Assembly (NCBI GenBank): GCA_022750335.1
Contig: JAKIVX010000001.1
Location: forward strand, 5,350 to 69,349
Reading direction: 5' to 3'
DNA from: Thermoplasmata archaeon
GTDB taxonomy: Archaea; Thermoplasmatota; Thermoplasmata; Lutacidiplasmatales; UBA184
DNA: 64,000 bases
In this document: positions 34,075 to 57,855 of the stretch, in pieces
Layout of the letters: each line of letters begins with the position of its first letter
How positions within the stretch are numbered: position 1 is the first letter of the stretch
Notes under the pieces: model-generated
What the model was told of the DNA's origin: nothing
Database searches by the model: none
What the model saw: the letters and a program-made list of their open reading frames with translations, nothing else
Position numbers and translations under genes: made by a program

Positions 34075-34078
34075 CGGC

Positions 34079-35971
34079 CTACTCTCCTTCCGGCGCCGCA
34101 GCTCCCGAACGGACGGCGAGCCGGGCCACGAGACTGATGCCGAGCATCATCGCCAGCAGCACCAGCGCCGCGCCGTAGGCGTCCGTCCGAAGGTTCTGGT
34201 ACGACGAGGCGAAGTTGGCGAAGATGAACGGAGTGAGCGCGGCGGTCTGGGTGTTCAAGCTTGAGAACCAGAAGCTGCTCCCCCCCGCGGTGAGGAGGAG
34301 CGCCGCGGTGTCCCCGAGGGCCCGCGACGCGGCGAGCAGGATTCCCGTCACGAGGGCGCTGCGCGCGCTCCCGAGCACCACCCGCACCGTGACCCGATGC
34401 CGCGGGAACCCAAGCGCCGTCGCGGATTCCCGGACCCCGGTGGGAACGGAACGCAGGGCTTCGATCGTGGCCCGCGTGACGATCGGGATCATGATGACCG
34501 ACAGGGCCACCCCACCGGAGAGGGCGCTGAGCGCCGCGTTGTGGTCGAAGTAGATGAAGAGCACGAAGACGAACACGCCGAGGATGATGGTCGGGATCCC
34601 GGTCATCACGTCGGCGAGGAAACCGACCAATTTTCCGAACGAGTTCCGGCCGTACTCCGCGACGTAGATCCCCGCCAGGAGTCCCATCGGAACGGCGATC
34701 AGCGCGCCGAGCCCGAGCATGATGAACGTCCCCTGGATCGCCGGACCGATCCCGCCGAGAGAGCACGTCGTGAAGGGGTTCGGGTTGCAGCCGAGCGGCG
34801 GGAGCGAGGTGTAGAACGATGGTTGCACGACCGCCGGTCCTCCCAGTCTGGCCAGCGTCAGGATGACGCTGGCGAGCGGGGCGATGGCGATGACGAGACA
34901 GAGGACGGTGAGACCCACGACCGTCCACTGGACTCCCCGACGCCGGACCAAGCGGGACCGGACCCCAGCGGCGACCCGCGCCCGCCACGCCGGAGGCTCT
35001 CCTCCGGTCCCCGGCTCCGCGGGGGAGGTCGCGGCCAAGACGAGCGAGCGGCGGGACCGGCGATGACGGCGCGGCCGGTCCGGGCTCCCTCCCTCGGTCG
35101 CCGACCCGAAACGCCACAGGAGTCCACGAGCCACGACGTTGACGAGCACGGTGATCGCGAGGAGGATCAGCGCCATCTCGAGCAGCGCCTGGTAGGCGAG
35201 GCTGGCAGGGGTCAACTCGCTGAAATTGTTCACGATCCATGAGGCGAGGGTCGCTCCCGGCGAGAAGATGGTACCCGGAAGGATGTAGACATTTCCGATG
35301 ACCATCGTGACCGCGATCGTTTCCCCGAGGGCCCGACCGAGTCCCAGCATGATGCCCGCGACGATGCCGGTTCGGGCGGGGCCCAGCACGGCCATCCGCG
35401 TCGCTTCCCACCGCGTCGCCCCGAGGCTGAGGGCCGACTCCCGGTAGATGCGGGGGACGGCGAGCATCGATTCGCGCGATATCGCGGCGATGGTGGGAAG
35501 GATCATCACCGTCAGGACCAGCGTCGCGGTCAGGAGGTCGTAGCCGAGGGAGCCCGACGGCGGGAACGGCCACCGACCGCCGGTGAGGGAGGTCAGACCC
35601 GGCTCGATAGTCGAGTTCATGAGGGGAACGATGACGAAGAACGCCCAGAATCCGTAGACGACCGACGGGATGGCAGCCGATAGGTCGACGACGTAGGTGA
35701 GGGGCCGGCGCAGCCACGCGGGCGCGATCTGGGTGAGAAAGATGGCGACTCCCAGCGCGATCGGAACGGCGAGCAGGAGAGCGAAGAGGCTAGTGAGGAT
35801 GGTGTCGACGATGGCCGGGCCGGCGCCGAAGACGTTGTGCGGCTCGTCCCAGACGGTGCCGAAGAGGAATCCGATTCCAAAGTGGGTCAGCGAGGGCCAC
35901 GCGGATTCGACCAGGAACCCCGTGAGCAACGCCAGGAGGACGAGGATCCCGAGCGCCGCGAGGCCGGCCAC
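34079..35971 (-). CDS. pstCA: Fused phosphate ABC permease PstC-PstA
   Basis: PstC-like half ([37 protein letters not shown]) joined by a basic linker to a PstA-like half ([39 protein letters not shown]) in one ORF. True start may be slightly upstream. Confidence 0.88.
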
Positions 35972-36083
35972 TCCGTGAAAGGTCCGACCCAGCCACCGGA
36001 GGAGGCGGATCCGTTGGGCGAGCGGGGCCCCTTGGGGGAGCCCCGCCTTGGGTTGCTTCGTCGGTGCTACGTTCGGCCCCCCC

Positions 36084-37334
36084 TCAGCACGAAGGGATCG
36101 ACGCTCCGTTGTACGTCATCGTTCCGATCCCCGTCACGTCATTCTGTAGGACCGAGTTGGGGAGTGCGGGGTAGTATAGGTTGGCCCCGGACGCGTAGCT
36201 CTGACCCTCGGTCGACGAGACGACCCAGGCGAGCCACTGCACCAGGACCTGGGACTTCACCAGGGTGGGGGCAAAGCCCTTGTCGGTCGCCTTGTAGACG
36301 TAGAGATAGATGAACGTCGCGAGCGGGTAATCGCCTACCCCTTTCGCGTTGATCATGCTCACGTTGTACCAACTCGAGCCGGCCGAGGCCGACGGAAGCG
36401 ACGACAGGGCGGCGACCTTGTCGGCGATCGCCGTCGTGGTGTCGGCGAGCGTCGGGGCGATGAACTTCCCCGAAGGGTTCTCGATCGCAGCGTACCCGAT
36501 GTTCTTGCTGTTCAGGTTGATCACGTCGGTGAGGTCGCTGTAGCTGATGGTATACTGGGTCGAGTTGACGATGCTCAGCAACGCCGAGTTCGAGGACTGG
36601 GCGGTCTGCTTGGCCCCCGCCGGGAACTTGACCGACAGGCCCTGCCCGACCGTGTGGTTCCAGTACGTGCTCTCCTGGGACAGGTAGCTCGTGAAGACAT
36701 ACGTCGTTCCCGCCGAGCCGGACCGGTCGACCGTGGTGATCGTGGCGTTCGGGAGGGTGACGCCTGGGTTCAGGGAGGCGATCGTCGCGTTGTCCCAGTT
36801 CGTGATGGTCCCGTTCCAGATGTCGGCCAGGACCGCTCCCGTGAGGTTCAGGTGGGTCGAAATCGGGAGGGCGCTCCCCAGGTTGTAGACGATCGTGATC
36901 GCGCTCCCCGTGATGGGCAGCGTGAGCGCAGGAGACGGGAGAGCGGCAGACTCGGTCGAGGAGAGAGGGTTGTCCGCGATCGCGAAATCGATACTCGCGG
37001 AAGTAAAGTGGGTGATTCCGGTCCCCGAGCCGGCACCGGGGTAGTTGACCTGGTTGCCGGTCTGGGACGCGTACGCCGCACCCCAAGCGAGGACGAGAGG
37101 GGTGGCGATCTGGGCACCATCTCCCTGCAGGGTGACCGGCCCGCAGACGGCGCTCTTGGTCTTCGCTCCGATCCAATGCTCTTCGTACGCGAGCCCGACC
37201 CCGCCCACGACGATGACGAGGACCACGACGACGGCGACGATCAACATCGTGTTGGACTTGCGTCGCACCACCGGCGGCGAATTCGAAGGCGCAGGGGGGG
37301 CGCTCCCATCGGCGGCGACGGATGTTCCGCTCAT
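36084..37334 (-). CDS. pstS: Phosphate-binding protein PstS-like, N-terminally TM-anchored
   Basis: TM MLIVAVVVVLVIVVGGVGLAY; GAGSGTGITHFTSASIDFAIADNPL; order pstS-pstCA-pstB. Start trimmed to MSGTSVAADG. Confidence 0.88.
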   Translation of the reverse strand: MSGTSVAADGSAPPAPSNSPPVVRRKSNTMLIVAVVVVLVIVVGGVGLAYEEHWIGAKTKSAVCGPVTLQGDGAQIATPLVLAWGAAYASQTGNQVNYPGAGSGTGITHFTSASIDFAIADNPLSSTESAALPSPALTLPITGSAITIVYNLGSALPISTHLNLTGAVLADIWNGTITNWDNATIASLNPGVTLPNATITTVDRSGSAGTTYVFTSYLSQESTYWNHTVGQGLSVKFPAGAKQTAQSSNSALLSIVNSTQYTISYSDLTDVINLNSKNIGYAAIENPSGKFIAPTLADTTTAIADKVAALSSLPSASAGSSWYNVSMINAKGVGDYPLATFIYLYVYKATDKGFAPTLVKSQVLVQWLAWVVSSTEGQSYASGANLYYPALPNSVLQNDVTGIGTMTYNGASIPSC

Positions 37335-37448
37335 CGGCCGGCCTCCGAGTTTGTCGAGGGTTCGCCGTTCGGCGTCCGCAGCTTTTGCACCCGCACCGGG
37401 GGTTCGGTCATACAGGCGGCCGAGAAAGGGGGGGTGTGATATCCCATC

Positions 37449-37496
37449 GGAAAAGCGCACGTTTTCCTTGCGGATGCGCAAATTTCGTATAATTTG
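37449..37496. promoter_or_regulatory. Candidate pstS/cysC divergent control region with two inverted repeats and an AT-rich element
   Basis: GGAAAA-gcgcacg-TTTTCC (37449-37467) and CAAATT-tcgtat-AATTTG (37479-37496) between divergent pstS and cysC. Confidence 0.5.
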
Positions 37497-41703: not shown

Positions 41704-44700
41704 TTACGGCGAACTCCCGGGCGGTTTCGGACCAGACGGAGGGCCCTGGGCCGTCGGAGGGGTCGGGGCGGAAGGACGGGGCATCCTCGCGGAGCCCGGA
41801 TTCTTCGAGGGGCCCCGGCGTCGCATCGCGAGACTGAGGAGCAGCATGAGCACGATCAGGGCCGACACTCCGATCACGATCGCCCAGTCCAAGGACGAGA
41901 GACCTCTTGGGGCGACCGACGGTAGGCTGGTCGAGATAAACCGGATTGAAACGCTGCTCGCGGTTCCGTCCAGAATGACCGACCCCGTGGCCTCGCTGGC
42001 CGTGTACCCTAGGATCGGTTGGACTGTGAAGTTGAACGTCCCGTTGGTCTCCTGGAACGCGATGCTCGCGCTTCCCATCGAGTAGTGCGTCACCGATCCG
42101 ATCGACACGGACCAATCGGAGTTCGGGGGGAGACCCGACTCCGTGAACGTGATCTCGTACGTTTCCGGCGGCGCCACGTAGGTAATCGACACCGCCTGGA
42201 TCGCACCTTGGACCACGACCGTGCCGTTCGCCGGTGTCAGGCTGAACCCAGGCCCGGCGCTCGCCTTCCAGAGCACCGAACCGTTGGCCAGGAAGAACAC
42301 GATCTGATCGGTCGTCGAGTTGACCGTCATCCCGCCCACCGTAACCGACCAATTCGTCCCCAGGGGGAGCCCCGTCTCCGTCCAGGTGACGGCATAGCGA
42401 ACCAGGGAGAAGGGCACATTATGCTGGACCGGGTTCCCGGTCACCTGGAGGGTGCCGGTCGCAGTTCGAGAGTAATTCGGGACACTAGCGATCGAGTACG
42501 GGTATGTTCCGTTCGGGAGCGCGAATTGGATGGTCGGGGTGGTGGACGAGAGCGTGCTCCCACCGACGGTCGCGCTCCACGAAGTCCCGTTGGGGAGTCC
42601 GAGTTCTTGGAGGGTCACCAGGTACGTTACCAGATGATAGTCGAGGCTGGCCGCGTATCCGACCGCAATACCGTTGATCGGCTCCTGTAGGCCGGATACG
42701 GTGAGCAAGCCATGGTACGTGAGATTCGACTGGTCCCATCCCGAGAGGCCCATGATCGAGTAGACGTAGCTCCCATTGGCGAGGCCGGTCCAAGTCAGCG
42801 TGTCCGTTCCACCGTCCGTGAGCAGGTTCCGAGAGTCGCCATTCACGGTGACCGACCATTCCAGACCCGATGGGAGACCCGATTCGCTCAGGGTGACCTC
42901 GTAGGTCACAAGGGTGAAGGTCACAGTGATCGCCACCGATTCACCGTTGACCGTTACGGTTCCCGAGTAGGGGATCGAACTCTCGTGCCATCCCGAGACG
43001 TCCGAGATGGAATATTGGTAGGTCCCGTTGGGGACGTTTGGAAACACCAGCGTGTCGTTTCCCCCGGAGGTCACCATGCTCTCCGGGGTCCCGTTGAACG
43101 TGACGGACCAGTTCTTACCTGCTGGCAATCCGGATTCTTCGAAGCTGACTCCGTACGAGAACGGTGTGAACGCCAACACCACCGAGATCGATTGACCGGC
43201 GACCGTCAGGTTTCCGATGTAGGAAATGTTCGACTGTTGGTAACCAGGAATGTCGTAGATTTCGTAGGCATAGGACCCGTTCACTTCGCCGAAGAATGAG
43301 ATGATGCTCGCCCCCGGTCCTTCGAGGTAGCCGAACGCGTAGGTACCGTTGAATGTGAGATACCAGTACGAGCCGACTGGGAGCCCAGACTCGGTGAAAT
43401 TGACCGTGTAGTTTACCTGGAGGAAGGTTAGGTTCATCAGAATGGCTGACCCGTTGACTGCAAACGTGGAGTGGTAGGAGGTCGGAGCATACCGGGAGTC
43501 ACCGGACGAGTCGTTGTACGAGTAGTTTCCGTTCACCTCGAGGACCGTGATCGTCGGAGCGCCGCCCGAATAGTTTGTGGTGCCCCCAATCGTGACGGAC
43601 CAGTTCGTGCCGGTCGGGAGCCCGGCCGCTGAAAATGTGACACTGTAAAAAGTGGGAAGGAAGGTTACGTTAAACGAGAGGGCCTGACCCACCTCCGAAA
43701 GATTCCCGGTCTCGTTTTCGATTCGGTAGCCGGTGATCGAGTTCACCCGATAGGTGTAGGAAGCGTTCACCAACTCGAACGTCACGCTAGTACCCCCATA
43801 GGAGTAGTTCGTCAAATTTCCGCTCGTCCCGTTCAGGGTGACGGACCAGTTGGTCCCGCCCGGCAGACCCGATTCGGTGAACGTGACGGGCGCGGTCGAG
43901 GGGCTGAACGAGATCGCGACGAGCACGGTGGCGCCGTTCACACGAACCTGCCCGCTCGTCGGCGTGCGGACCAGGCCGCTCACGGCCGGAACCGAGTAAT
44001 TGTAGGTCCCGTTGGGCTCGACGACCTGGATGGTCGAGCCGTTCGAATCCGTGACTGAGCCGTTCACATCCACGGACCAACTGGTCAACGGCGGGAATCC
44101 TGTGGCGACGAACGAGACCGAGTAGACTGGGGTGAACCTCACGGTGACCGACACGGGTCGTCCGGTGACGTTGAAGCTTCCTACGGTCGGGTCCGGGCCC
44201 CAGCCGGAAATCGAGGTGGTCGCGGTGAAGTTGTAGGTTCCATTCGCGAACCCCTCCGAGTATGGCGGGGCGCTGAGGGGGGATTTGTGGGGGGACTTGC
44301 CCGCGACCTCAAGGGTCCAGGTCGTCGCTCCTCCCCCGGAGTGCAACCCCGACTCGGTGAACGTGACCGTCCAGAGGAAGACCGTCCACTTGACGGTGCA
44401 CCCGGCCGGGTGCCCGTTCACCTCGACCAATCCGGAACATGAGCTCGTGGTGTACCCCGGTTCGGGCCCAATCTTGTAAGTGTAGGTTCCGTTGGGCTCG
44501 AGGAAAGTGATGACGGAGGTGGTAGACGTGAGGTTGGTGCCGTTCAACGTGACCGACCAGTTGCCGCTCGGCATGGGAGTGGGCAGTCCGGTTTCATGGA
44601 AGGAGACATTGTAGTCGAATGGGACGTAGTTGATCCCCACTGTCGTCACCATCCCCCTAACAGAGACAGTGCCTGCGTATGCCGGCGGTCTCCACCCGGC

Positions 44701-47115
44701 AGCGCCCCCGAGCGTGTAAGCGTACGTTCCATTCGGCTCCGCGAAAGTGATGGTCGTACTGGTCGCACTCTGACCCGTCCCGTTCAGAGTCACGTCCCAG
44801 TCGGTGCCGGAGGGGAGGCCGGTCTCGTTGAACCAGATCGCGTGAACCGTGGAGTTGGTTGCGAAGGTGATCGGCACCGATTTTGAGTAGCCTCTCACGC
44901 CGACCGAACCGGAGGCCGCATCCGGGGTAAACCCGGGGATCGACCCGACCGTGAAGGAGTACGTGCCGTTCGGCTCCTCAAACTCGATCGTGCCTCCCGT
45001 GGAATTGTAGCCCGCTAATCCACCTAGGACGATCGACCAGTTACTCGAGGACGGGATCAAGCCCTTCTGATGCACGGTCACTACGTACGTGACCTCCGAC
45101 CAGGTCACGTTCACCCAGACGGACGTCGCGTTCACAAAGACCGAGCCGGTAGCGTTCGGTGGTGTCCAACCCGAAACGACGCCGGTCAGGTTCGCGGGCC
45201 TCCAACCGGATACTGTGCCGAGATCGAACGGTTGCGTTCCGTTCGGTGCGAATCCGGTGAGGCTCGTCGTGTTCGACCCGTACAGGGTCCCGTCGAGTGT
45301 CACGGTCCAGTTCGTCCCCGAGGGCAGTCCGGTCTCGTTGAAGGTTACCGGGTAGGTGAATGCAGCCCACGGGACCTCGACGGACGCCGGGGTCCCGTTG
45401 ACAGTGATAGTGCCGGTTGTGTTCGCCGTGGACCAGCCTGCGAGCCGCCCGATGGTGTAGGAGTAGTTTCCATTTGGCTCGGGGAAGGTGATGGTCCCGC
45501 TCGTCGAGGAAAGTGTGGTTGAGCCGACTGTAACGGACCAGGACTTTCCCGAGGGTAGCCCGGACTCACAGAAGGTCAACGGGTATTGCCCCCCGGACCC
45601 CACGGAGGCATTCGAACGGCACATCGAAACGAGGAGGACGCCGAGCGGGGGGAGCACCCAGCCAGTGCCGTTCTCGGAGCCGTACGATTGAGCGACCGTC
45701 CCGTTCGGGAAGCTGGTGGAGTTCGTTTCGGTCCAGGCCTCATACGTTCCCCAACTCGGAAACACACCCCCGGCGACGTTTAGCTGGACAGTTTGGGTGG
45801 GGTTGGTGTTCACCGCGAGAAGCGTAATCGAATTCGCGCTCGGCGACTCCGAAACCCCAGCGAAGATCCCCTCCTGCAGCGTGCCGGTGACCGACGTGTT
45901 GAGGGGGAATGTGTCGTAGTGCGGGAGGACCTGCGTGTAGAGAGTATCGAGTGGGAAGGGGAGACCCACCCCGTTGAACAGCGAGCCGTTGTAATCCGAG
46001 CGAAGTTCGAAGAGGTCGGCGTTGCTGACGTTCGATTCGCTCATCATCAGGAGCTCAGCCGTCACAAAGGGGATCTCGGCGTAGGAGTCCATGTAGGCCT
46101 GGTCGTACGACTGCTGGGTGATTGCTCCAAACTCGTCCACGAAGAACTGGATCGAGCAGGTGGTGCAGCTGATGTTGGCCACGGCGGAGCGGACCGCCTT
46201 CTCATCGGCGGCAAATCGGGTCACCATGTATGTTTTGTTGGCCGTCAGGCTCCCCAGGAAGTTCCCGAGGGTGGCATTCTTTGTCCCATCCTCGCCCGGG
46301 TAGTCATGGACCGCCACCGCTGATAGGTTCGGGCCATTGATTTGGACGGTCGCCGTGAGCCATTGCCAATCCGGTCCGGCACCATTACCGATTCCTGGCA
46401 GTCCGATGAACCTAAGGTTCGGGTCGACATTTTTCATGGCGGCGATGTAGGCATGGACGACCCACGCATACTGGGTGGGGGTCGGCGGTGGGAGCGCGAT
46501 CGAGTTCCACCGCGTCCAGTTCTGACCAAAGTGTTGCCACCGGAAGGGTTCGTTCCCGATCTCCCAGAAGGCCGGGGTGAAGTTGAGCACTCTCTCGGTA
46601 TACCAGACTTCGTAAGCCCCGAGCGTCGGGTTGTCAATCTCCCCCGGGACTGTGAAGATGGCACGACAGGAAATTGCCTTGCAGGCCGCCACGAACTGGG
46701 ACTCGTTGTTGAGTATACGGGTGGATACTCCGTTGGTCCAAGTCGTTCCGTTGGTCATGTTGAACGTATCGGCGACATCTCCGGCCGGCCAAACCACCCA
46801 GTTGACCGGGGTACCCTCGGTCTCGTTGGTCAAGTTGGTGAGGTTGTAGCCCGGATTCAATCCGGTGCCCCAAAAATCGGAGAGATTATTGGTCGTCTGG
46901 TTCCGAACCGTCAGGGTCTCGTTGACCACGACTTGGGGAGGAGGGCCGGCAATCGCGAACCCAACGGCGGCACCGGTGGTGGGTAGGGTGCCAACGTCGA
47001 ACAGCCCGAGGGGGAGTCCTGAGATCAGGAGAGGTATGACGAGAACAGTGATACGAGCGCATCGGGCCGCGACGAACCGCCCTCCCCGGCGATCTCCCGA
47101 TCCGCGCCATCCCAT
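41704..47115 (-). CDS. Giant (1803 aa) membrane-anchored surface protein: N-terminal glycosidase-like domain, about 15 ESGLPxGTxWSV repeats, C-terminal TM
   Basis: FWEIGNEPFRWQHFG and IQFFVDEFGAI (candidate acid/base and nucleophile Glu); 15 repeats counted by eye; C-terminal LDWAIVIGVSALIVLMLLLSLAMRRRG. Confidence 0.85.
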   Translation of the reverse strand: MGWRGSGDRRGGRFVAARCARITVLVIPLLISGLPLGLFDVGTLPTTGAAVGFAIAGPPPQVVVNETLTVRNQTTNNLSDFWGTGLNPGYNLTNLTNETEGTPVNWVVWPAGDVADTFNMTNGTTWTNGVSTRILNNESQFVAACKAISCRAIFTVPGEIDNPTLGAYEVWYTERVLNFTPAFWEIGNEPFRWQHFGQNWTRWNSIALPPPTPTQYAWVVHAYIAAMKNVDPNLRFIGLPGIGNGAGPDWQWLTATVQINGPNLSAVAVHDYPGEDGTKNATLGNFLGSLTANKTYMVTRFAADEKAVRSAVANISCTTCSIQFFVDEFGAITQQSYDQAYMDSYAEIPFVTAELLMMSESNVSNADLFELRSDYNGSLFNGVGLPFPLDTLYTQVLPHYDTFPLNTSVTGTLQEGIFAGVSESPSANSITLLAVNTNPTQTVQLNVAGGVFPSWGTYEAWTETNSTSFPNGTVAQSYGSENGTGWVLPPLGVLLVSMCRSNASVGSGGQYPLTFCESGLPSGKSWSVTVGSTTLSSTSGTITFPEPNGNYSYTIGRLAGWSTANTTGTITVNGTPASVEVPWAAFTYPVTFNETGLPSGTNWTVTLDGTLYGSNTTSLTGFAPNGTQPFDLGTVSGWRPANLTGVVSGWTPPNATGSVFVNATSVWVNVTWSEVTYVVTVHQKGLIPSSSNWSIVLGGLAGYNSTGGTIEFEEPNGTYSFTVGSIPGFTPDAASGSVGVRGYSKSVPITFATNSTVHAIWFNETGLPSGTDWDVTLNGTGQSATSTTITFAEPNGTYAYTLGGAAGWRPPAYAGTVSVRGMVTTVGINYVPFDYNVSFHETGLPTPMPSGNWSVTLNGTNLTSTTSVITFLEPNGTYTYKIGPEPGYTTSSCSGLVEVNGHPAGCTVKWTVFLWTVTFTESGLHSGGGATTWTLEVAGKSPHKSPLSAPPYSEGFANGTYNFTATTSISGWGPDPTVGSFNVTGRPVSVTVRFTPVYSVSFVATGFPPLTSWSVDVNGSVTDSNGSTIQVVEPNGTYNYSVPAVSGLVRTPTSGQVRVNGATVLVAISFSPSTAPVTFTESGLPGGTNWSVTLNGTSGNLTNYSYGGTSVTFELVNASYTYRVNSITGYRIENETGNLSEVGQALSFNVTFLPTFYSVTFSAAGLPTGTNWSVTIGGTTNYSGGAPTITVLEVNGNYSYNDSSGDSRYAPTSYHSTFAVNGSAILMNLTFLQVNYTVNFTESGLPVGSYWYLTFNGTYAFGYLEGPGASIISFFGEVNGSYAYEIYDIPGYQQSNISYIGNLTVAGQSISVVLAFTPFSYGVSFEESGLPAGKNWSVTFNGTPESMVTSGGNDTLVFPNVPNGTYQYSISDVSGWHESSIPYSGTVTVNGESVAITVTFTLVTYEVTLSESGLPSGLEWSVTVNGDSRNLLTDGGTDTLTWTGLANGSYVYSIMGLSGWDQSNLTYHGLLTVSGLQEPINGIAVGYAASLDYHLVTYLVTLQELGLPNGTSWSATVGGSTLSSTTPTIQFALPNGTYPYSIASVPNYSRTATGTLQVTGNPVQHNVPFSLVRYAVTWTETGLPLGTNWSVTVGGMTVNSTTDQIVFFLANGSVLWKASAGPGFSLTPANGTVVVQGAIQAVSITYVAPPETYEITFTESGLPPNSDWSVSIGSVTHYSMGSASIAFQETNGTFNFTVQPILGYTASEATGSVILDGTASSVSIRFISTSLPSVAPRGLSSLDWAIVIGVSALIVLMLLLSLAMRRRGPSKNPGSARMPRPSAPTPPTAQGPPSGPKPPGSSP
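42000..45590 (-). repeat. Protein-level tandem repeat region (about 15 units of roughly 75-90 aa)
   Basis: Recurring (Y/F)xVTFxESGLPxGTxWSVxLNG...FxEPNGTYxYxIxxxxGY...GxVxVxG; boundaries approximate. Confidence 0.85.
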
Positions 47116-47246
47116 AGCCTGCCGGGACCGTACCCCCGCCCCTTAAAGGGCCGGAAGGGCGAGTCTCGTATCAAATAAGGGGAATTTGAAGAGACTGCAC
47201 GCGGGGTTCTCTCCGGACCCCTCGCTCACCGCAATCCGTGGTAGCG

Positions 47247-47438
47247 TTAAGATCCCGGCCCGAGCTCGGAACGTTGGACGTGGTTGCTCACCGCAACTCC
47301 CGCGAGCATGATGGCGACCCCGAACAAGGAGACCACGATGCTCGTGCCTCGGTTCGCCACGAAGACACCGACGACAAAGATGGTCAGTCCCGTGACCATG
47401 GTTGCGACCCCGAGGACGCGAAGGACCCTCATCCGCAA
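47247..47438 (-). CDS. Small two-TM membrane protein (63 aa)
   Basis: MRMRVLRVLGVATMVTGLTIFVVGVFVANRGTSIVVSLFGVAIMLAGVAVSNHVQRSELGPGS. Confidence 0.6.
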   Translation of the reverse strand: MRMRVLRVLGVATMVTGLTIFVVGVFVANRGTSIVVSLFGVAIMLAGVAVSNHVQRSELGPGS

Positions 47439-47796
47439 CGTCGCTGAGACTCCGGGTCACAAGGCAGTATCCCTCACGGCCTTCCCTCTTGCCAACGGGT
47501 ACTACACGGAGCCGGCTCGAGGGCGTGGAGGGTTCGCCGGACAGAGGGTGTGCCGAAAGTAACTTTCGCCCGAGGAATTCACCCGCCGAAAAGGTTCGCA
47601 CGTAACTCTCATCCTCCGTTCCACTTCGAAAGGGGTTTTGATGTAGCCTTCGCTCGATCGAGAGATGTCGGGTGGACTGCGCTCCCGTTTCTCACGGAGT
47701 CGCGCAGGGGGCGCAGGTCGCTCTCCCGAGGATTCCCTCGACGAGCGCAGTTCTTGCGTCTGTGGTTCTAATTAACCTTCTTCGGTTCGCCCCCGC

Positions 47797-50472
47797 ATGG
47801 CCACCCTTACGCCCCGCTCGAGAATGATTTGGATTTTGCCGATTGTGCTGGCCGCCTGCGCCCTGATGGTTCTTCCCGGGGGCACGGTGCTCGGCTCCGG
47901 GCTCGCGCATTCGCCAAGTCTCGGGCGCACCGACATGAGTCCAGCCGGTTACCCGTCCGGTGGGGTTAGCCCTCTTCCCGGTGCCGGTTTGAGCCTTCTT
48001 TCGGGCATTCCGGCCGCCGTCAGTCAGGCGCCCTGGGTCCAGTCTCTCACCCATCAGGGGCCCAGCCTTCGACCTCTGACCTCCCTTCCTGATCTCGCGC
48101 TATTGAAGAACCAAGTTCCGACGACCGCCGGGCATGTCGACCCATTCTATGTCGCCCAGCCCGCACCGCTCGGCCTCGCCGACTACGGGCTCGGAGCGAC
48201 GACCTACTCCTACAACACTTCGCACTTTCTCGGCCAAGTGACCTTCAACACCGCGCCCAACGTCACCGACCCCCAGTCGACCGGCGTCATCGAGCCCGGA
48301 GGCGCGGCGGACGGGTACGTCGGGAGCGTTCACGAGTTCGGGATCCAACTCAACACCGTCGCCACGAAGATCTCCATCCCCGGGTCCGACAAGGGTTTCT
48401 TCTGGACTCAGAACGTGGTCGACTGGAACGACACCGGCATCCACTTCGTCGACGACACGTTCAACCTCACCTCCGCCACGCAGAATCCGTTTTACATCGC
48501 GCCTGGAACCATTTACTCGGGCTGCAACAACGATTCGGCCGGGGTCAACGTCATCCTGTACACGTACGGAGGCGTCTTCCAGTGTGTCGGGGGCACCATC
48601 CCCGTCAGCGCCGCTTCCTACCCAGTGACCCTCCAGCTCTACAACAATGCGACCGTCAATGCCCAGAACCGGACCCAGGTCGCCTACGGATTCCGGATCG
48701 TCGAAACCGGAACCGGAACCGTTTACACTGGGGTAAGCGACACGGTTGTGTTCAACAACCCGGCCGCACCCGGAGTCGCCCCGTCGAGCAAACCCGGATT
48801 CACCGTGGACGGATTCACCGGGGCGCCCGCGGGCCTCTTCCGGGATGCTGAGATAGTCCTCGTCGGCGACATTGGCGGCGACAACTCAGCTTTCCGGTCC
48901 GTGAACGGCACCGTCCAACTCGAGTACTCGAACGCGACTTCGGGAGGGTTCCGGAGCGTCCCGTCCGCGTACAACTGGGGAGGCAACACGGGAGAGACGT
49001 CGACCGGTATCGCCGACTTCTGGACCACCAGTCACACCCTGGAGATCAACCAAGGTCCGGCGATGCTCTACGGGCTTTGGAATGCGGTGCCCGGAGTCTC
49101 CGTGCGGTCGGGGGACGTGCAACTTTCCGGCTCCATCACCCCGTCGTACGGATTCGTCTTCGTGAGCAACACACCGTCCCCCCTCAACCCTTGGGCGGCG
49201 GGGGCCCGGGACAACATGAGCTGGTTGCCTACGACCGATACGGGCACCTTCAATACCTACCTGCCCCCGCTCGGCTCCCCGTGGACGACCCGCTACCATG
49301 TCCAGGCCTTCGCGGCGGGATACGATGAGAGGAACGGAACGGACGTCCTGGGCTCGACGACCGGCTACCGGCTCACCCTACATGCCGCACCGGGCACGCT
49401 CCGTGCGCCCCTGTACATGTACTCGAATGCGCAGGCCTCGAGCCTCGCAAAGGCCGTGACCGGATCCGCGACACCGCCGTACATTTTCAACGGTCTGGTC
49501 GTCAACCTCAACGCGTCGTTCAACCACCTGAATGATTACGGCTATCCGACGTTCGTCCTGTTCATGAGTCAGAGCGTGACTCAGCCGATCGAGGTCAACA
49601 ACACCTACGAAGGCTCAGATTCCCCGTCCGGGAATTTCTATTTCCTGGACTACTCCCCCACCGGATCCAGTGGAATCCTGGTTCCCGGGCCGGCGGTAAC
49701 AGGGTCCCTCCCCTACTACACCTCTGGGATCAACCTGTATGACGGCGTGGATGATCAGGTGACCGACCAAGTCCTTGCGGGCGAGTCGTACAACCTCCAG
49801 GTCGTCCTGTGGCAGGACACGAACGCCTGGGTCTCCGACGTTACTTCCGAATATGTCGGCCCAGGCGTATGGGTCGGCGACTCGGTCGACACGACGGTAG
49901 AGAACGAGCTGGTGGAGTCGGGTGGTACCGGGATCAACGACATCGGATCCTCTGGCACCACGGGGTGGAACCTCGCGGTCAACGGCTCGTACTTCGGGGA
50001 CCGTAGCACGGGGGTCGAGGGGCTCAGTAGCTCCGACGGAACGTTTTCTTGGATCAACGTCACGAACGGTGCCTTGGGCGTCACCACCGGTGCAGACTAT
50101 GGCGCAGGGTCCGACAACGACGCCTACTACTACCTTGCCGGAACCGACGGCATGGACGTGAACGAACTGAGCGCGAGCAACTACTCCTGGGGGGCAAACG
50201 TCAGCGTGTCCGAGCAGAACACCCTGAACGACGTGACCGCCTCGGGGAACTCAACGGGAGTGTTCGTGGACGATTCGTCGCGGATTACCGTCACCCATGT
50301 GTGGGCGGACGGGTACTCGACCGGGGTATCTATCAACAACTCGTCGCGGATCACGGTCTCGTGGGTGCACGCTCGGGACTTTTCGCTTGGAGTTTACGTC
50401 AACGCTTCCACGAAGGTCAAGATATCACACGTCAGCGCGTCGGACCACTCGACGGCGGTTTACGTCAACTAG
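47797..50472 (+). CDS. Thermopsin-like (peptidase A5) protein with C-terminal beta-helix-like repeats
   Basis: PAPLGLADYGLG; VIEPGGAADGYVGSVHEFGIQLNTVATKISIPGSDKGFFWTQNVVDWNDTGIHFVDDTFNLTS is thermopsin-like; C-terminal ~23-aa SxGVxVxxSSRITVxxV repeats. TATA-like ctaattaacc about 27 nt upstream of ATG. Confidence 0.85.
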   Translation: MATLTPRSRMIWILPIVLAACALMVLPGGTVLGSGLAHSPSLGRTDMSPAGYPSGGVSPLPGAGLSLLSGIPAAVSQAPWVQSLTHQGPSLRPLTSLPDLALLKNQVPTTAGHVDPFYVAQPAPLGLADYGLGATTYSYNTSHFLGQVTFNTAPNVTDPQSTGVIEPGGAADGYVGSVHEFGIQLNTVATKISIPGSDKGFFWTQNVVDWNDTGIHFVDDTFNLTSATQNPFYIAPGTIYSGCNNDSAGVNVILYTYGGVFQCVGGTIPVSAASYPVTLQLYNNATVNAQNRTQVAYGFRIVETGTGTVYTGVSDTVVFNNPAAPGVAPSSKPGFTVDGFTGAPAGLFRDAEIVLVGDIGGDNSAFRSVNGTVQLEYSNATSGGFRSVPSAYNWGGNTGETSTGIADFWTTSHTLEINQGPAMLYGLWNAVPGVSVRSGDVQLSGSITPSYGFVFVSNTPSPLNPWAAGARDNMSWLPTTDTGTFNTYLPPLGSPWTTRYHVQAFAAGYDERNGTDVLGSTTGYRLTLHAAPGTLRAPLYMYSNAQASSLAKAVTGSATPPYIFNGLVVNLNASFNHLNDYGYPTFVLFMSQSVTQPIEVNNTYEGSDSPSGNFYFLDYSPTGSSGILVPGPAVTGSLPYYTSGINLYDGVDDQVTDQVLAGESYNLQVVLWQDTNAWVSDVTSEYVGPGVWVGDSVDTTVENELVESGGTGINDIGSSGTTGWNLAVNGSYFGDRSTGVEGLSSSDGTFSWINVTNGALGVTTGADYGAGSDNDAYYYLAGTDGMDVNELSASNYSWGANVSVSEQNTLNDVTASGNSTGVFVDDSSRITVTHVWADGYSTGVSINNSSRITVSWVHARDFSLGVYVNASTKVKISHVSASDHSTAVYVN

Positions 50473-50523
50473 CCGGAACGGGGAGTTCGGGCGCGGCCCC
50501 GAGTCGTTGTCGGCGGCGGTTCG

Positions 50524-52857
50524 TCAGTCGGCTTCCGTGTCGGTCAATCCGGCATCCGAACCCACCCACTCTGCCACGTCCATGAACGGCAGCGAGTCCG
50601 GGGAAGCCCCCGAAATCGGGTAGGTGTCGTTGAGCAGGAAGAGGAAGGGGGCCCGGGCCGACATGCTGAAGTTGAAGTAGTCCCACATCGAAGGAGCATT
50701 GCAATCCCGGATGGTGATGCATCCGAGGCCCCACCGCTGCTCCATTAGCGAGAGGATCGAGTCGAAATCCCCGGAGGTGTGCACGATCAGCCCCTGGGGG
50801 GTGTACGGGCTGATCACAATGATCGGCACTCGGATCGACAGTCCGAGTGGATCGATCGACGGCGGTGCGACGTGGTCGTAAAACCCTCCATAATCGTCCC
50901 AGCTCACGATGATGGCCGTGGAATTCCAAAACGGAGAAGCCTCGACCGAATCGACAACCTCGCCAACGAACGCCTCCCCTTTCGTGACATTCGCCGGCGG
51001 GTGGTCCGAGAAGTTTCCTTGCGGGATGACCCACGAAATGTTGGGAAGCGCCCCGTTGTCGACGTCCGAGAAAAACTGCGTCCGTTGGACGAAGTGGGAA
51101 TTGTACCACGAAGTGTAGCTCTCCGCTCGACCGGCCAGAGGATTCCACAACGAGTACGCCGACCCGTTGCCCGGACCATCGTGAGGCGTGGGCTGGATGG
51201 CGTTCGTGTAGTTCGACAGTGGCCAGTCATAGTATTTCCACGAGACCCGGCCATTCGTTGCGTTGAGCAGGTCCTGTACTGACTCCGTGGCGTTCGCCTC
51301 GTTGAGGTAAGTGTGCAGTTGGGAGGTCGTGTCGGTCGCGAAAACGGTCTTGAAGTTCTGCGGCGGGGCCTGCCCCGCCAAAAGGTACCAATGATTGGGA
51401 AGCGAGTAGGACAGCGCCGACGAGAAGAAATTGTCACCGAGGCCGTACTGCTCAGCCAGGTCCCAGTACATCGGGATCGTCGTGCCGTTGTAATGGCCAA
51501 AGGTCTCGATCGAGTTACCCTCGGCGGCGTAAAACCCATTCATCGCCCCTCCGTTGATCGACGCGATGGTGGGATCGTATGTGTGGCCTATATCCGGGAG
51601 CGAGAGTTGGTGCAGGGTGTAGTTGTACGGGCGCACGCACCCAAGACCCGGGTTGGTGGGAGAGTACGGCACACAAGTTCCGGGGGGGATGCCATTCGCG
51701 GTGCTGTTACAATCGGGTCCCAGCACGAGGCAGTAGGTTCCGAAGTAGTTGTCGTACGCATGGTTCTCCATGAACACCACGACTACGTGCTGAATGCGAT
51801 TCGCCCCAGGAGGCGCCATGAATGGGGAGTAGACTATCCCCGTTGAGACATTGGCACCGACAATCTGCAGCCCACCGAACGCCGGGGTGCCAATGTACCC
51901 TCGGACGATTCCGAGAGCAAAATCGTAGGTTCCGTTGGGTTCGAGGAAGGTCACATTCAAGGGGGCCACCGAAGCCTGACGTGAGCCAGACAGATTCACG
52001 CTCCAGAGCGTACCGTTTGGAACGCCCGTCTCATTGAAGGTGACGGAGTAAGTTGCTGGCGGAACCCAGGGGGTTTTCGGCTTGAGCGAGAAACTCTCCA
52101 TGGACCACGCCGTAGAAGTCTTGGTTGTGCCGTTGATCCAGGTGTACCCGCTCGCGGAGGGGGTAAAACCGAAATCCGCTACGGTAAGGTTCGTCTTCAG
52201 GAAGGAGGACTTCTGGGAACCTAGCAGGAGGTCCGAGCCCTCCACTTTCACGGTGCATTGGTGGGCCCCCGCCCACCCGGAAAGCACGATGTCGCCCGGG
52301 TTGGCATAGACCCGGCCGCTGAAGTTATTGACCTGTGTAGAACTGAACTGGGAGGTTTGGGCCACCGGCGAGAGGGAGTCAAGCGGAGCCGCGGCCACCC
52401 CCGACACGTCAACGAACTCCACGGCCGCGTTCACCGTTTGACCCTTCGAGGCCGCGTGGACGGTTGCGGTTATCGTAACTGGCCCGCCCACCACATTGTT
52501 GGCCCAATACACGGCCTGCCCGACTTTTCCCGAACCGTCGACTTCCTGCGAATAGACCAATTGCCCGAACGAGTCTCCGAGGCTATCGGTAACGGACGTT
52601 ACCGTGTTCTTCGGGAGGAGACTGAGAAAGAGAACTATGGTGTCCCCAGCACTTGAGGTGAAAAACGGGGATGAATTCGAAACAGTCCCGGTTCCATGAA
52701 TCAGGAATGAGCCCTGAGAAAGGAACCCGGGCGACAAGAAATCAGAGGTCAGTCGGCTGGGCGCCGGCGTCCGCCCCGGAGCGCTGAATCCCAGACCCCC
52801 GAGAATCAGCAGGCCGACGACTAGAACTGCGACAATTGCCGAGACTCCTCGGTGCGT
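50524..52857 (-). CDS. Phospholipase C/acid phosphatase-family phosphoesterase with one ESGLP-type repeat and N-terminal signal
   Basis: HVVVVFMENHAYDNYFGTYC; SLPNHWYLLAGQAPP; VSWDDYGGFYDHVAPP. ORF-track start is TTG at 52737, but the open frame extends upstream through a signal-like segment; 52857 is a putative ACG start. Confidence 0.85.
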   Translation of the reverse strand, partial: THRGVSAIVAVLVVGLLILGGLGFSAPGRTPAPSRLTSDFLSPGFLSQGSFLIHGTGTVSNSSPFFTSSAGDTIVLFLSLLPKNTVTSVTDSLGDSFGQLVYSQEVDGSGKVGQAVYWANNVVGGPVTITATVHAASKGQTVNAAVEFVDVSGVAAAPLDSLSPVAQTSQFSSTQVNNFSGRVYANPGDIVLSGWAGAHQCTVKVEGSDLLLGSQKSSFLKTNLTVADFGFTPSASGYTWINGTTKTSTAWSMESFSLKPKTPWVPPATYSVTFNETGVPNGTLWSVNLSGSRQASVAPLNVTFLEPNGTYDFALGIVRGYIGTPAFGGLQIVGANVSTGIVYSPFMAPPGANRIQHVVVVFMENHAYDNYFGTYCLVLGPDCNSTANGIPPGTCVPYSPTNPGLGCVRPYNYTLHQLSLPDIGHTYDPTIASINGGAMNGFYAAEGNSIETFGHYNGTTIPMYWDLAEQYGLGDNFFSSALSYSLPNHWYLLAGQAPPQNFKTVFATDTTSQLHTYLNEANATESVQDLLNATNGRVSWKYYDWPLSNYTNAIQPTPHDGPGNGSAYSLWNPLAGRAESYTSWYNSHFVQRTQFFSDVDNGALPNISWVIPQGNFSDHPPANVTKGEAFVGEVVDSVEASPFWNSTAIIVSWDDYGGFYDHVAPPSIDPLGLSIRVPIIVISPYTPQGLIVHTSGDFDSILSLMEQRWGLGCITIRDCNAPSMWDYFNFSMSARAPFLFLLNDTYPISGASPDSLPFMDVAEWVGSDAGLTDTEAD

Positions 52858-53251
52858 TTCCTTCCTCCCTCCTAGCGGACCAGGATCGGTCGGGTTTTCT
52901 CCTACCTGCCGGGAAGCACCCGGGGTATTTGCATGTGCCCTTCAAAGCGAAGGCGGAACGAGAATCCCATCGAGCCTCCGAGAGGAACTCTTGCCTCGAG
53001 GGCACTATGTGCGGGTGCCGCAGTGCTGGGGCGCACTCACTCGCCCCGAGCGGATTCGCGGCCATCTCTGTACAAACGAGATACATCTCCGAGGAGCCGG
53101 CGCCACCTCTTCTCGCTCGTATGACGAACTCCCAGGTCGCAAGCGTCGGCCCGGGTTCGCGGCTTCGGCGTATACTCCCTTTAAGGGCCTACCGACGTGT
53201 GGGCTGACCGTCGTATCTGATTGATGCGCGTACGACGAAGGGGGGCCGGCG

Positions 53252-56062
53252 ATGTTGGGCGATGACGGGGAGCGCCTCTCTGAGTCGACCGAGAAGTCGC
53301 CCGTAAAGTTGACGATGGGGTCGGGACTTCTCGAAAATAAATCGCGTCGGGAGGGGAAAATCCGCACCTTCCTGGTACTCGCGCTCGTCGCGATTTTAGT
53401 CGGGAGCTATGCCGCCGATTTACCCCCGAACGCGCGAGCAGGGATGCCAGCCGGACCCCCGGACGTCAAAAGTGCGGCGGGCGCACCCACCCCGCCCCCC
53501 CAGTTCAACTGCGTAGGCTACGGGGCATCTCTCATCGTCCTAGCTCCGTCGCCGGCTGCAGGACTCGCAGGCACCGTCTTCGAGCTCGAAGGCTCGGGCT
53601 ACTACAACCGGACCTCGGGTCCTCTTGGCAACTTCACGATATGGATGGCCAACTTTACGGGCGGGTCACTTCTCTATCTGACTTTCATCCCGGCGGGTGT
53701 TCCCGTTCATTTCTTCGTGAACGTCACAGTGCCGTCCATGAACACTACCACGCCGTTTCCGCCGGGGCCCTATGAATTCTGGTCCCTGGAGAACTACACG
53801 ACCAATTCGACCTGCGCGAACTATCCGTTCACCCTGGCGGGAGTTCCACCCCCGTCGATCGGGTGTCTGTCGTGGTCAGCACAGCTCAACGTGACCTCTC
53901 CGTCTCCCGCAAGCGGCGCGGCGGGTTCGAACGTCACATTGCAGGGCCGGGGATTCTCCTACCAGGGGAGCACTTCCATTTACTGGGCGGACCTCGATGG
54001 TTCATCTACGGTTTTGATAGGAACGGCGGGGGCCAGTGATCCGAACGGCTGGTTCAACCTGACCGCCGAGGTCCCCACCACGGGGTACGCTCCTGGCACC
54101 TACGCGTTTTGGGGTGTCGACGGTGACGCCGATTGCGCGGGGGCGGAGTACGTCTTGACGGGGAGCAACGAACCCATTCTCACCTTGGACCCGACCTCGG
54201 GCCTCCCCGGAACCGTCGTGGCGGCGACTGGCATCAATTTTGCGATGAATTCGCAGATCACCTTCACGTTCGACGGCGGGGCCGTTCCTTCGACCTGCAC
54301 AGCGAACGGGACCGGAAGCTTTCCGGGGGCGACCGGCACGCCGTGTACGTTCTCGGTCCCCACGGTTCAGGAAGGGGAGGACGGGGGACAAAATGTGGTC
54401 GCAACGGATTCGTTTTCGAACACGGCGTCTGCGTCCTTCTCCGTGTCGACCTGGTTGCTGATCACGAGTACGCCCACGACGGGGGCGGTGGGTACGCCCG
54501 TGACCGTGGTGGGCTCGGGTTGGCCGGCGGGCGAGACGATCAGCCATGTCGTGTTCGGGGTTAGCCTCATAGGGACCGCCGCCGAGGTCTCTTGTACGGG
54601 CGGAACCCCCGTGGTCAATCTGTCCGGGGGATGGAGCTGCAGTTTCTCGGTGCCTCCGATCCACCCGGGGACGTATTGGGTGATCGCGGTAGACTCGGCC
54701 GGACTCCAGTTTTCGAACAACACGTTCACCGTATCCGGGTTGACGATCACGAGTACTCCCTTGATCGGGCCGGCAGGAGCGCCGGTGACCGTAAACGGGA
54801 CGGGGTGGATTCCGGAGGACTCGGTCAAAATCGGAATGGGACCGGTAGGGATCTCCGGGGGTATCGGGACAAGCGTTGGATTCACGACGGTGAACGCGAC
54901 TGGAGGGTTCACGTTCAGCTTCACCGTCCCGACCCTAGGGGCGGGTGCGTACTGGGCGCTTGCCTATGACACGACCCAGAACCCCGACGGAGGTCCGGGG
55001 ACGATCGTCAACTCGACGAACTCGTTCACGGTGATCGCAGGTCTGACGATCACGAACCCGATCACGACTGGTGGGGCGGGAACGCCACTGAATGTCGTGG
55101 GCACGGGGTGGACGGAAGGGGAAACGATCAGCCACATCGTGTTCGGAGTGAGCCTCATAGGAACCTCCGTCGAGGTGTACTGCGCCGGGGGGAGTCCCGT
55201 TGTCGATGCCCTCGGGGGTTGGAGCTGCAGTTTCTCGGTACCCGCTATCCATCCGGGTTCGTATTGGGTGTTCGTGGTCGACACGTCCGGACTCACGTTT
55301 TCGACCAACACGTTCACCGTATCGGGGTTGACGATCACGAGTACGCCGACGACGGGGCCGGTGGGAACACAAGTGACGGTCGCCGGGACGGGGTGGACTC
55401 CAGGAGACAATGTCGCGATCGGAATGGGACCCGTGGGGATCCTTGGGATTGTCTGGTCGGGCCAAACGTCCACGACCGCAAGTGCGACGGGGGGGTTCAC
55501 ATCGACCTTTACCATCCCCGACGTCGGCGGGGGAGCCTACTGGGCGCTTGCCTATGACTCGAGCCAAAACCCCGTCTTAGGTCTGGGGACCATTATTGTG
55601 AACTCAACGAATTCGTTCACGGTGACCGGCTCGCTGGAGATTACCAGTACGCCCACGAGCGGACCGATTGGCACCTCGGTGACCGTGATGGGCACGGGGT
55701 GGCCGGTGGGCGGATCGATTAGCGAGGTCGTGTTCGGGGTTAGCCTCTTGGGGATATCTGTGGAGGTCTCTTGCGCGGGGGGAAGCCCGACGGTCAACGG
55801 AACCGGGGGGTGGAGTTGCACTTTCCCCGTGCCTTCCATCCAGTTGGGGACATACTGGGTGATAGCGGTCACCGCGGCCGGACTCCAGTTTTCGACAAAC
55901 ACGTTTACCGTAACCCCACCGCCCTCCACGGGAGGCTCGGGGTCGGTGTTCGGAATCCCGATCCTCGACCTCGGGGTACTCGGAGTCGCGGCTGTCCTGG
56001 TGGCAGGTGGGGCCGCGGCCGTCGCCGCGCGCGGCCGAGGGAAGACCCCTCCCGTTCCTTAG
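53252..56062 (+). CDS. Secreted/anchored repeat protein with alternating IPT/TIG-like modules and C-terminal TM
   Basis: N-terminal FLVLALVAILVGSYA; repeated LTITSTPTTGPVGTxVTVxGTGW modules; C-terminal LDLGVLGVAAVLVAGGAAAVAARGRG. Confidence 0.85.
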   Translation: MLGDDGERLSESTEKSPVKLTMGSGLLENKSRREGKIRTFLVLALVAILVGSYAADLPPNARAGMPAGPPDVKSAAGAPTPPPQFNCVGYGASLIVLAPSPAAGLAGTVFELEGSGYYNRTSGPLGNFTIWMANFTGGSLLYLTFIPAGVPVHFFVNVTVPSMNTTTPFPPGPYEFWSLENYTTNSTCANYPFTLAGVPPPSIGCLSWSAQLNVTSPSPASGAAGSNVTLQGRGFSYQGSTSIYWADLDGSSTVLIGTAGASDPNGWFNLTAEVPTTGYAPGTYAFWGVDGDADCAGAEYVLTGSNEPILTLDPTSGLPGTVVAATGINFAMNSQITFTFDGGAVPSTCTANGTGSFPGATGTPCTFSVPTVQEGEDGGQNVVATDSFSNTASASFSVSTWLLITSTPTTGAVGTPVTVVGSGWPAGETISHVVFGVSLIGTAAEVSCTGGTPVVNLSGGWSCSFSVPPIHPGTYWVIAVDSAGLQFSNNTFTVSGLTITSTPLIGPAGAPVTVNGTGWIPEDSVKIGMGPVGISGGIGTSVGFTTVNATGGFTFSFTVPTLGAGAYWALAYDTTQNPDGGPGTIVNSTNSFTVIAGLTITNPITTGGAGTPLNVVGTGWTEGETISHIVFGVSLIGTSVEVYCAGGSPVVDALGGWSCSFSVPAIHPGSYWVFVVDTSGLTFSTNTFTVSGLTITSTPTTGPVGTQVTVAGTGWTPGDNVAIGMGPVGILGIVWSGQTSTTASATGGFTSTFTIPDVGGGAYWALAYDSSQNPVLGLGTIIVNSTNSFTVTGSLEITSTPTSGPIGTSVTVMGTGWPVGGSISEVVFGVSLLGISVEVSCAGGSPTVNGTGGWSCTFPVPSIQLGTYWVIAVTAAGLQFSTNTFTVTPPPSTGGSGSVFGIPILDLGVLGVAAVLVAGGAAAVAARGRGKTPPVP
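54440..55920 (+). repeat. Higher-order tandem repeat, two module types alternating, ~590-bp two-module period
   Basis: GTGTTCGGGGTTAGCCTC-like segments recur near 54550, 55140 and 55733; intervening GAYWALAYD modules near 54945 and 55545. Confidence 0.8.
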
Positions 56063-56147
56063 AGGCAACCCCGGACCATTGTGGGTAGGGTCCAAGCGGG
56101 TAGCATGAACGGGACCGGTCCCCCGTAGCGCCTCAGCCGGGAGGGAT

Positions 56148-56220
56148 TAGCCCCGAGCGGATTCGAACCGCTGTCGCCGGCTCCAAAGGCCAGCATGCTT
56201 GGCCACTACACCACGGGGCT
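56148..56220 (-). tRNA. tRNA-Gln (anticodon TTG)
   Basis: Reverse strand AGCCCCGTGGTGTAGTGGCCAAGCATGCTGGCCTTTGGAGCCGGCGACAGCGGTTCGAATCCGCTCGGGGCTA: 7-bp acceptor, TTCGAATC T-loop, anticodon loop CTTTGGA; CCA not encoded. Confidence 0.92.
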
Positions 56221-56403
56221 ATCGTCCGTGCCACCAGCGGACGATGCTAAAGAGTCTATGACACACACCAGCTGGAATCGGGAGGGCGGCCGGAGGGGGC
56301 CGCTGTTCGACAGAGCCGCTGCCACGGTGCGAGGATCCTGCGCTCCGCGCCCTCTCGAACTGCGGTCGGTTTCGCTATCTCCCCCACACAACTGCGGAGG
56401 GCC

Positions 56404-57855
56404 ATGCGACGCACCAAGATTCTCGCCACCGTAGGGCCGTCTACCGGGTCCTCTGAAGGGCTGGGAGGCCTCCTACGTGCGGGCGTCGACGGACTCCGGT
56501 TGAACTTGGCCCACGGGACCTCCGAGCAACATCGGGCGACGCTTCGCGCGATGCACGCCGCATCCCGACAGGCCGGCCGCGAAGTGGCCATCGTCGCGGA
56601 TGTCCCTGGACCCAAGATCCGCATCGGCCCCCTCGTCGGAGAGGAGGTCATCCTCGCCGTGGACCAAACTTGGACTCTGGATGGGGAGGCGGCGCCCGGC
56701 GATGCGCGTCGGGTCCGCCTCGAGGTTCCAAGCCTAAAAGGTGTGGCCAAGGTCGATGATCCCCTCCTCCTGGGAGACGGCAGCGTTGAACTCCGGGTGA
56801 CCGCCGTCCGACCGACTTCGTTCGACGCACGGGTGCTGAGCGGGGGTCGGGTGCGCTCGCAGACCGGAGCCTACCTTCCACGCGCCCGCACGAACACCGC
56901 GGCGTTCTCGGCCGAGGACCGGAGGATGGCGGAGGTGGCCCTCGCCGAAGGGATCGACTATCTTTCCCTCTCGTTCGTCCGGGACTCGGTCGACCTCGTG
57001 GCCGCACGTCGGTGGCTCGACAAGCAACCAGAGGGGGCAGAGGTGGGACTCATCGCCAAGATCGAACGAGCCGAGGCGTTGAAGTCGATCGACGGGATCC
57101 TCAAGGATTCAGACGGCATCATGGTGGCACGAGGCGACCTCGGGATCGAGGTACCCCTCGAACGACTCGCCCTCGAGCAGAAGGACCTCGTGGCGCGCGC
57201 CAATGGGGCCGGACGGTTCGTCATCGTCGCCACGCAGGTACTCCTCAGCATGGTCGAGAGTCCGCGGCCGACCCGGGCGGAGGCGACGGATGTGGCGAAC
57301 GCGGTGCTGGACGGCGCCGATGCGGTCATGCTGAGCGAAGAAACAGCGATCGGTCGGTACCCGAACGAAGCGGTCGGATGGCTCGATCGGATCATGAGGG
57401 CCACCGAACCCTCCTTCGATCCCCGAAGGACTCGGGACCTGATCCGCGGTTTTCCCCCCGACCCGGCAACGCTTCCCGAACGCTCGGTCGCCGCGGCCGC
57501 GGTCGCACTCGCCGAAGGGGTTCGGGCGAGCGCGATCGTCACCCCGACGCACAGCGGACGAACCGCGCGTCTGATCGCGGCCCTTCGGCCGGGTTGCCCC
57601 GTCGTGGCGCTCGCCCGACGATCGGCCGTCCGGCGCAAACTCGCCCTCATCCGCGGGGTCGATGCACGTCCCTCCCCGACCCAGGGAAAGATCATGGACC
57701 TTCGCCACCAGGCCATTGACCTCGCACGGACCTCCGGCCTCGCGAAGCTGGGCCCCATCGTCCTTACGTTGGGATTCCCCGTGGACGGTCGTCCCACCAA
57801 CCTGGTCACGCTGGTCGATCCGTCTGAGGTCGCGGAAGGACCGACTCCCCGATAG
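56404..57855 (+). CDS. pyk: Pyruvate kinase
   Basis: RRTKILATVGPSTGS; GLRLNLAHGT; DSDGIMVARGDLGIEVPLE; VMLSEETAIGRYP. Confidence 0.95.
   Translation: MRRTKILATVGPSTGSSEGLGGLLRAGVDGLRLNLAHGTSEQHRATLRAMHAASRQAGREVAIVADVPGPKIRIGPLVGEEVILAVDQTWTLDGEAAPGDARRVRLEVPSLKGVAKVDDPLLLGDGSVELRVTAVRPTSFDARVLSGGRVRSQTGAYLPRARTNTAAFSAEDRRMAEVALAEGIDYLSLSFVRDSVDLVAARRWLDKQPEGAEVGLIAKIERAEALKSIDGILKDSDGIMVARGDLGIEVPLERLALEQKDLVARANGAGRFVIVATQVLLSMVESPRPTRAEATDVANAVLDGADAVMLSEETAIGRYPNEAVGWLDRIMRATEPSFDPRRTRDLIRGFPPDPATLPERSVAAAAVALAEGVRASAIVTPTHSGRTARLIAALRPGCPVVALARRSAVRRKLALIRGVDARPSPTQGKIMDLRHQAIDLARTSGLAKLGPIVLTLGFPVDGRPTNLVTLVDPSEVAEGPTPR

Follow-up and report, generated by a model that had tools for sequence, protein, structure and literature searches.

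The gene cluster described here is best explained as a lineage-variable group of exported enzymes and surface proteins, not a dedicated module, whose main component would be a cell-anchored extracellular glycosidase of clan GH-A type carried on a stalk (probability about 0.68). It lies in a stretch of 64,000 nucleotides (the window) from a Thermoplasmata archaeon (GCA_022750335.1), the source genome being 1.6 Mb in size and 72% complete. A sequence-only reading had proposed four large consecutive genes at 41704-56062, all apparently exported, and open reading frames and hydropathy confirm this. The genes encode a glycosidase-like stalk protein of 1803 aa (41704..47115, minus strand), consisting of a leader, a GH-A-like domain, 15 ESGLP repeats, a transmembrane (TM) segment and a Pro-rich tail; a thermopsin (MEROPS A5) of 891 aa with a C-terminal NosD-like parallel beta-helix (47797..50472, plus strand); a PF04185 phosphoesterase of 737 aa from the first TTG (50524..52737, minus strand); and a TIG/IPT-like repeat protein of 936 aa with N-terminal and C-terminal hydrophobic segments (53252..56062, plus strand). 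Beyond them, tRNA-Gln(TTG) (56147..56221, minus strand) forms the conserved edge of a variable region, and pyruvate kinase (56404..57855, plus strand) serves as synteny anchor. Signal and TM segments in these proteins were assigned by hydropathy only, which places N-terminal hydrophobic segments in the glycosidase, thermopsin and TIG-like proteins and in an upstream extension of the phosphoesterase, and, among the four, a C-terminal TM segment only in the glycosidase and TIG-like proteins. The genes alternate strands (-,+,-,+) and therefore do not form one operon. Between the glycosidase and thermopsin genes there appears to be a small ORF of ~60 aa (approximately 47239-47432, minus strand), in which two hydrophobic helices can be seen by eye. 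A promoter scan between these two genes with bacterial patterns gave nothing usable.

The GH-A-like domain of the stalk protein (aa 30-505; 45601..47028, minus strand) was recognised from residues invariant in 70 sequences, from an AlphaFold2 model and from its nearest folds, GH51 and GH79. In domain numbering the invariant residues of the 70 aligned sequences are P128, E130, P152, G158-N159-E160-P161, W164, W174, H241, Y243 and E299. The putative acid/base is Glu160 (aa 189), within GNEP, and the putative nucleophile is Glu299 (aa 328). The model (pLDDT 89.2, pTM 0.88) is a (beta/alpha)8 barrel followed by a C-terminal beta-sandwich, with Glu160 just after strand 4 (154-157) and Glu299 at the end of strand 7 (294-300). 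Such a barrel, with catalytic Glu residues at the ends of strands 4 and 7, is the hallmark of clan GH-A, and the predicted domain shows it. The domain sits on an adhesin-like stalk, as would suit a non-catalytic descendant of the clan that binds carbohydrate or acts as an adhesin. However, both Glu residues, the Asn that precedes the first, the His-x-Tyr and the Trp residues have stayed invariant across diverse sequences, which would be unexpected in a protein that only binds, and this alternative is highly improbable.

Family-level assignment is less straightforward, as the window protein has no Pfam or NCBIfam match above cut-off. A single-sequence PDB search with the domain also gave no match, and a profile was needed. 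Any one Pfam family matches at most 7/70 members (top GH44, PF12891, 7/70, best 6.8e-5), and NCBIfam matches 1/70 (ArfA, 8e-4); the window protein is matched in neither case. The best fold and profile scores came from GH51 (Foldseek E 9e-22, TM 0.70; profile against PDB 1.9e-10). GH51 alpha-L-arabinofuranosidases (3s2c, 1pz3, 2y2w) share with the domain the barrel and C-terminal beta-sandwich, the strand-7 catalytic Glu and the position of the H-x-Y, but identity is 11-17%, there is no Pfam GH51 match, the Arg before YPGG is not kept, and the window protein is exported and stalked. The position of the Arg before Y/WPGG, which we take to be a GH51 specificity residue, holds Val in the window protein and is variable in its relatives. 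Membership of GH51 was rejected because no family-level sequence match was found in Pfam or NCBIfam and this Arg is not kept; nor can a GH51 substrate be transferred, since substrates vary within clan GH-A and the window protein has Val for Arg. GH79 heparanase and beta-glucuronidase structures (5bwi, 7pr9, 3vny) share the fold (Foldseek E 4e-19 for heparanase; target-normalised TM 0.73-0.74 for 5bwi and 7pr9) and align at GNEP, but at 12-17% identity. Membership of GH79 was likewise rejected, as it has no family-level Pfam or NCBIfam match and the one profile-level match, to 5bwi (1.2e-7), is local. In the profile alignment the first Glu, that of GNEP, coincides with the motif of GH79, and the second with the DE motif of GH51. 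GH44 (PF12891) and GH39 (1w91, PslG 5bx9; profile 5e-6 for GH39) are weakly matched by some members or by the profile, whereas the window protein itself is unmatched and neither is the top fold match.

Relatives of the domain occur in 46/101 genomes of the same archaeal family, often in several copies, with up to about 10 matches in one genome, some of them fragments of a single gene. In the class as a whole 9/150 genomes match, all of them within this one family. A scan of an 85,462-species collection with an exact GNEP-type pattern, by which members with another pattern are missed, yielded 80 relatives; apart from records of 'bacterium clean3188', probably a mislabelled MAG, every one comes from a MAG of Thermoplasmata or 'Euryarchaeota'. 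The nearest relatives of the glycosidase-like protein come from MAGs of Thermoplasmata, among them Ca. Lutacidiplasma silvani, and many of these MAGs were recovered from acidic soils. The same MAG series (AcS1-45, AcS3-62) has been described as the order Lutacidiplasmatales, to which these neighbours suggest that the source genome belongs as well; the order comprises one family, which is described as acidophilic and in which acid peptidases are known; for its glycosidases, the main text of that study reports GH57, GH15 and GH133 from dbCAN annotation (PMC9287336). In the open-access literature we found no report on the ESGLP repeat or on such a glycosidase in Lutacidiplasmatales. The source genome itself encodes a second stalked glycosidase about 130 kb away, with a 68% identical domain (G000:C22:183441-184862; L136 9349-13611).

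The glycosidase domain occurs both with and without a stalk. An N-terminal hydrophobic segment is present in 66/71 complete relatives. Domain-only proteins, which end soon after the domain, account for 32 of the 71, and a C-terminal TM segment is found in 2/32; the other 39 have an extension, with ESGLP repeats in 37 and a C-terminal TM segment in 32. These counts suggest that one enzyme domain exists in both apparently released and cell-tethered versions. On a tree of 78 domains, a minimum of 3 changes accounts for the stalked state, where shuffling gives a mean of 25; five stalked proteins, the window protein among them, form a group with full support. This glycosidase family, together with its free/stalked duality, is the part of the cluster that deserves follow-up.

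The stalk of the window protein is built from 15 ESGLP repeats in tandem, each about 80 aa long (aa 509-1733; 41917..45591, minus strand), and the predicted C-terminal transmembrane segment follows (aa 1746-1764; 41824..41880, minus strand; hydropathy). An HMM trained on 12 copies of the repeat detects each of the 15 at E <= 2e-18 and a single copy in the phosphoesterase (51820..52053, minus strand; E 7e-21), the same counts as first proposed. The repeat had also been thought to tie the island together, and this does not hold: it is genome-wide, with 132 copies in about 30 open frames (32 in one count), and the HMM finds none in the thermopsin and TIG-like proteins. The repeat was accordingly rejected as an island marker. 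Outside the island, a large protein at 18991-21657 (plus strand) has 8 ESGLP repeats and no Pfam match above cut-off; a similar gene lies upstream of pyruvate kinase in another genome (G077; L116 7506-9329). The model of the repeat is an all-beta sandwich (pLDDT 94.5), for which the top Foldseek matches were SdrD B domains, pilus adhesins, DUF3823 and other Cna-B-like folds, all weak (best E 2.3e-3, none below 0.001). The preferred interpretation of the repeat is a Cna-B/transthyretin-like stalk unit, with a putative likeness to Cna-B and CarboxypepD_reg stalk domains in the predicted fold; it differs from them in sequence, as the whole 1803-aa protein has no Pfam match above cut-off and so no Cna-B or CarboxypepD_reg match. 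In relatives, phosphoesterases that adjoin glycosidase genes carry CarboxypepD_reg (PF13620) repeats in a similar role.

A stalk, a TM anchor and 87 N-x-S/T sites in the glycosidase protein could also point to remodelling of the cell's own surface coat, in which the glycosidase, the protease and the TIG-like protein would modify or build an S-layer or glycoprotein envelope and would not serve scavenging. The TIG-like and NosD modules and the many paralogues are in keeping with this. However, nearly half of the glycosidase family is domain-only and apparently released, no S-layer gene was identified at the locus and the phosphoesterase fits poorly, which makes such a role unlikely for the cluster.

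The proposed mix of polysaccharide, protein and phosphoester hydrolases stands most firmly for the thermopsin and the phosphoesterase, both far above their Pfam cut-offs; for the glycosidase, unseen by Pfam and NCBIfam, it is alignment and fold that speak for it. The thermopsin reaches 121.6 bits for PF05317 against a cut-off of 25 (5.3e-35; PF05048 9e-10 for the NosD-like part), which places it with family A5, and a PDB search with its domain gave no match. The active site of the thermopsin family was not established as of PMC3842238. The window thermopsin, which has no ESGLP repeat and no C-terminal TM segment, differs in its NosD-like C-terminus from the other thermopsins of the genome, which carry ESGLP repeats.

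The phosphoesterase (PF04185 4.9e-69) had been given as ~778 aa. Its frame is open to 52941 and a hydrophobic leader is in frame (52737-52941), but this leader lies upstream of every ATG, GTG and TTG, and the longer protein therefore needs a non-standard start; either that or a sequence or assembly error would account for the placement of the leader. The nearest solved structures are AcpA (2d1g, 1.8e-25) and a phospholipase C (PLC; 8yk5, 6.4e-25), nearly equal in score. Motifs of the catalytic region, among them MENH, S-x-P and DD-x-x-G-x-YDH, align with those of the AcpA acid phosphatase and phosphocholine phospholipase C (PF04185), from which the window protein differs in an extra N-terminal region and the ESGLP repeat. 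With 157 bits against 580 and 149 against 363 it misses the two NCBIfam cut-offs (equivalog/subfamily), and assignment as a phosphocholine-specific PLC (TIGR03396) was rejected on the first of these, the equivalog cut-off. Phosphate scavenging by this enzyme is plausible because PstS (TIGR00975 above cut-off) and an ABC ATPase are encoded 13 kb away (33322-37481, minus strand). Elsewhere in the window is a gene for a histone-deacetylase-family protein (28834-30195, plus strand; PF00850 1.2e-71). For the fourth protein, the TIG-like label holds as far as a motif that can be seen by eye, with no Pfam TIG match above cut-off.

Comparison with relatives shows that the cluster is real, yet a local assembly. 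Pyruvate kinase and the adjoining tRNA-Gln are conserved, often followed by MFS and MBL genes, and the region upstream is variable. Upstream sequence of 6.8 kb or more was available for 14 relatives, and a glycosidase or thermopsin gene was found there in 0/14, so that conserved co-occurrence of the four genes was not borne out and their synteny was rejected as a conserved unit, being absent in 14/14. One genome (G053) keeps only the TIG gene of the set at this site: a 35% identical relative precedes the pyruvate kinase frame by 1.2 kb, and MscS lies upstream of it, as it does in the window; in G085 a TIG gene adjoins MscS on another contig. Other ESGLP proteins lie upstream in G077, G085 and G026, and a phosphoesterase in G048. 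Most simply, the MscS-TIG-tRNA-Gln-pyruvate kinase neighbourhood would be the older arrangement, joined in this lineage by the genes for the glycosidase, thermopsin and phosphoesterase. The lower GC content of the four genes (59-63% vs 67-68%) fits such arrival, yet is also expected from the amino-acid make-up of the proteins; horizontal transfer was not concluded from it, since Ser/Thr/Asn-rich exported proteins lower GC on their own.

Some gene pairs do recur. The pair statistics, drawn from 21 genomes with 90 glycosidase and 95 thermopsin places, are a lead and not proof of joint function, because the tests were chosen after the data had been seen and contig ends were ignored. Head-to-head glycosidase-thermopsin pairs within 1.2 kb were observed 4 times (the window, G088, G046 and G044) against about 0.14 expected (P about 1e-5, which becomes 4e-4 with G046 and G044, probably one event, counted once), and glycosidase-phosphoesterase pairs within 6 kb 13 times against about 2.9. 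Together with the export of all four proteins, this would fit a conserved functional module, inherited and regulated as one scavenging or predation unit. However, glycosidase-thermopsin pairs within 10 kb number just 6 against 4.9 expected, the thermopsin partners differ in architecture, the strands alternate and the four-gene set is missing at the site in the 14 relatives. Glycosidase-glycosidase pairs within 10 kb (13 vs 2.0 expected) suggest moreover that general clustering of exported genes may explain the pairs, and we regard a conserved module as rather unlikely. Many of the phosphoesterases near glycosidase genes are weaker PF04185 relatives of different architecture. Such relatives adjoin glycosidase genes at five loci (L169, L170, L171, L172 and L176), some with CarboxypepD_reg stalks, and a recurring glycosidase-phosphoesterase pair at these loci is possible. 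What stands of the suggested scavenging or predation module is the clustering of exported hydrolase genes in this lineage; the four-gene unit is not conserved, and predation has no specific evidence in its favour.

If the cluster is a lineage-variable set of exported enzymes around a stalked glycosidase, as we prefer, the C-terminal membrane helix and a rod of 15 Cna-B/transthyretin-like domains would carry the enzyme outward, where it could reach glycans, be they in soil polymers, on neighbouring cells or in the glycoprotein coat of the cell itself. Cleavage would follow the retaining double displacement of clan GH-A, with the GNEP Glu as acid/base and the strand-7 Glu as nucleophile. The thermopsin may cut the protein part of the target, the phosphoesterase may, at acid pH, free the phosphate bound in organic phosphates, and the products could be taken up by general transporters.

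The chances seem about even that the glycosidases are a new clan GH-A family confined to one acid-soil Thermoplasmata family (Lutacidiplasmatales), with at most about 10 matches per genome and more than one switch between free and stalked forms, and that they provide an extracellular polysaccharide route in archaea for which the main text of the published account names only alpha-glucan storage glycosidases. Routine annotation with Pfam and NCBIfam leaves this family unnamed. If the glycosidase is active, an uncultured acid-soil archaeal order would possess an unrecognised family of extracellular polysaccharide-degrading enzymes. This would revise the view of the diet of these archaea, supply acid-stable enzymes to try, and offer a natural series in which one enzyme occurs either free or on a surface stalk that ranges from 1 to 15 repeats.
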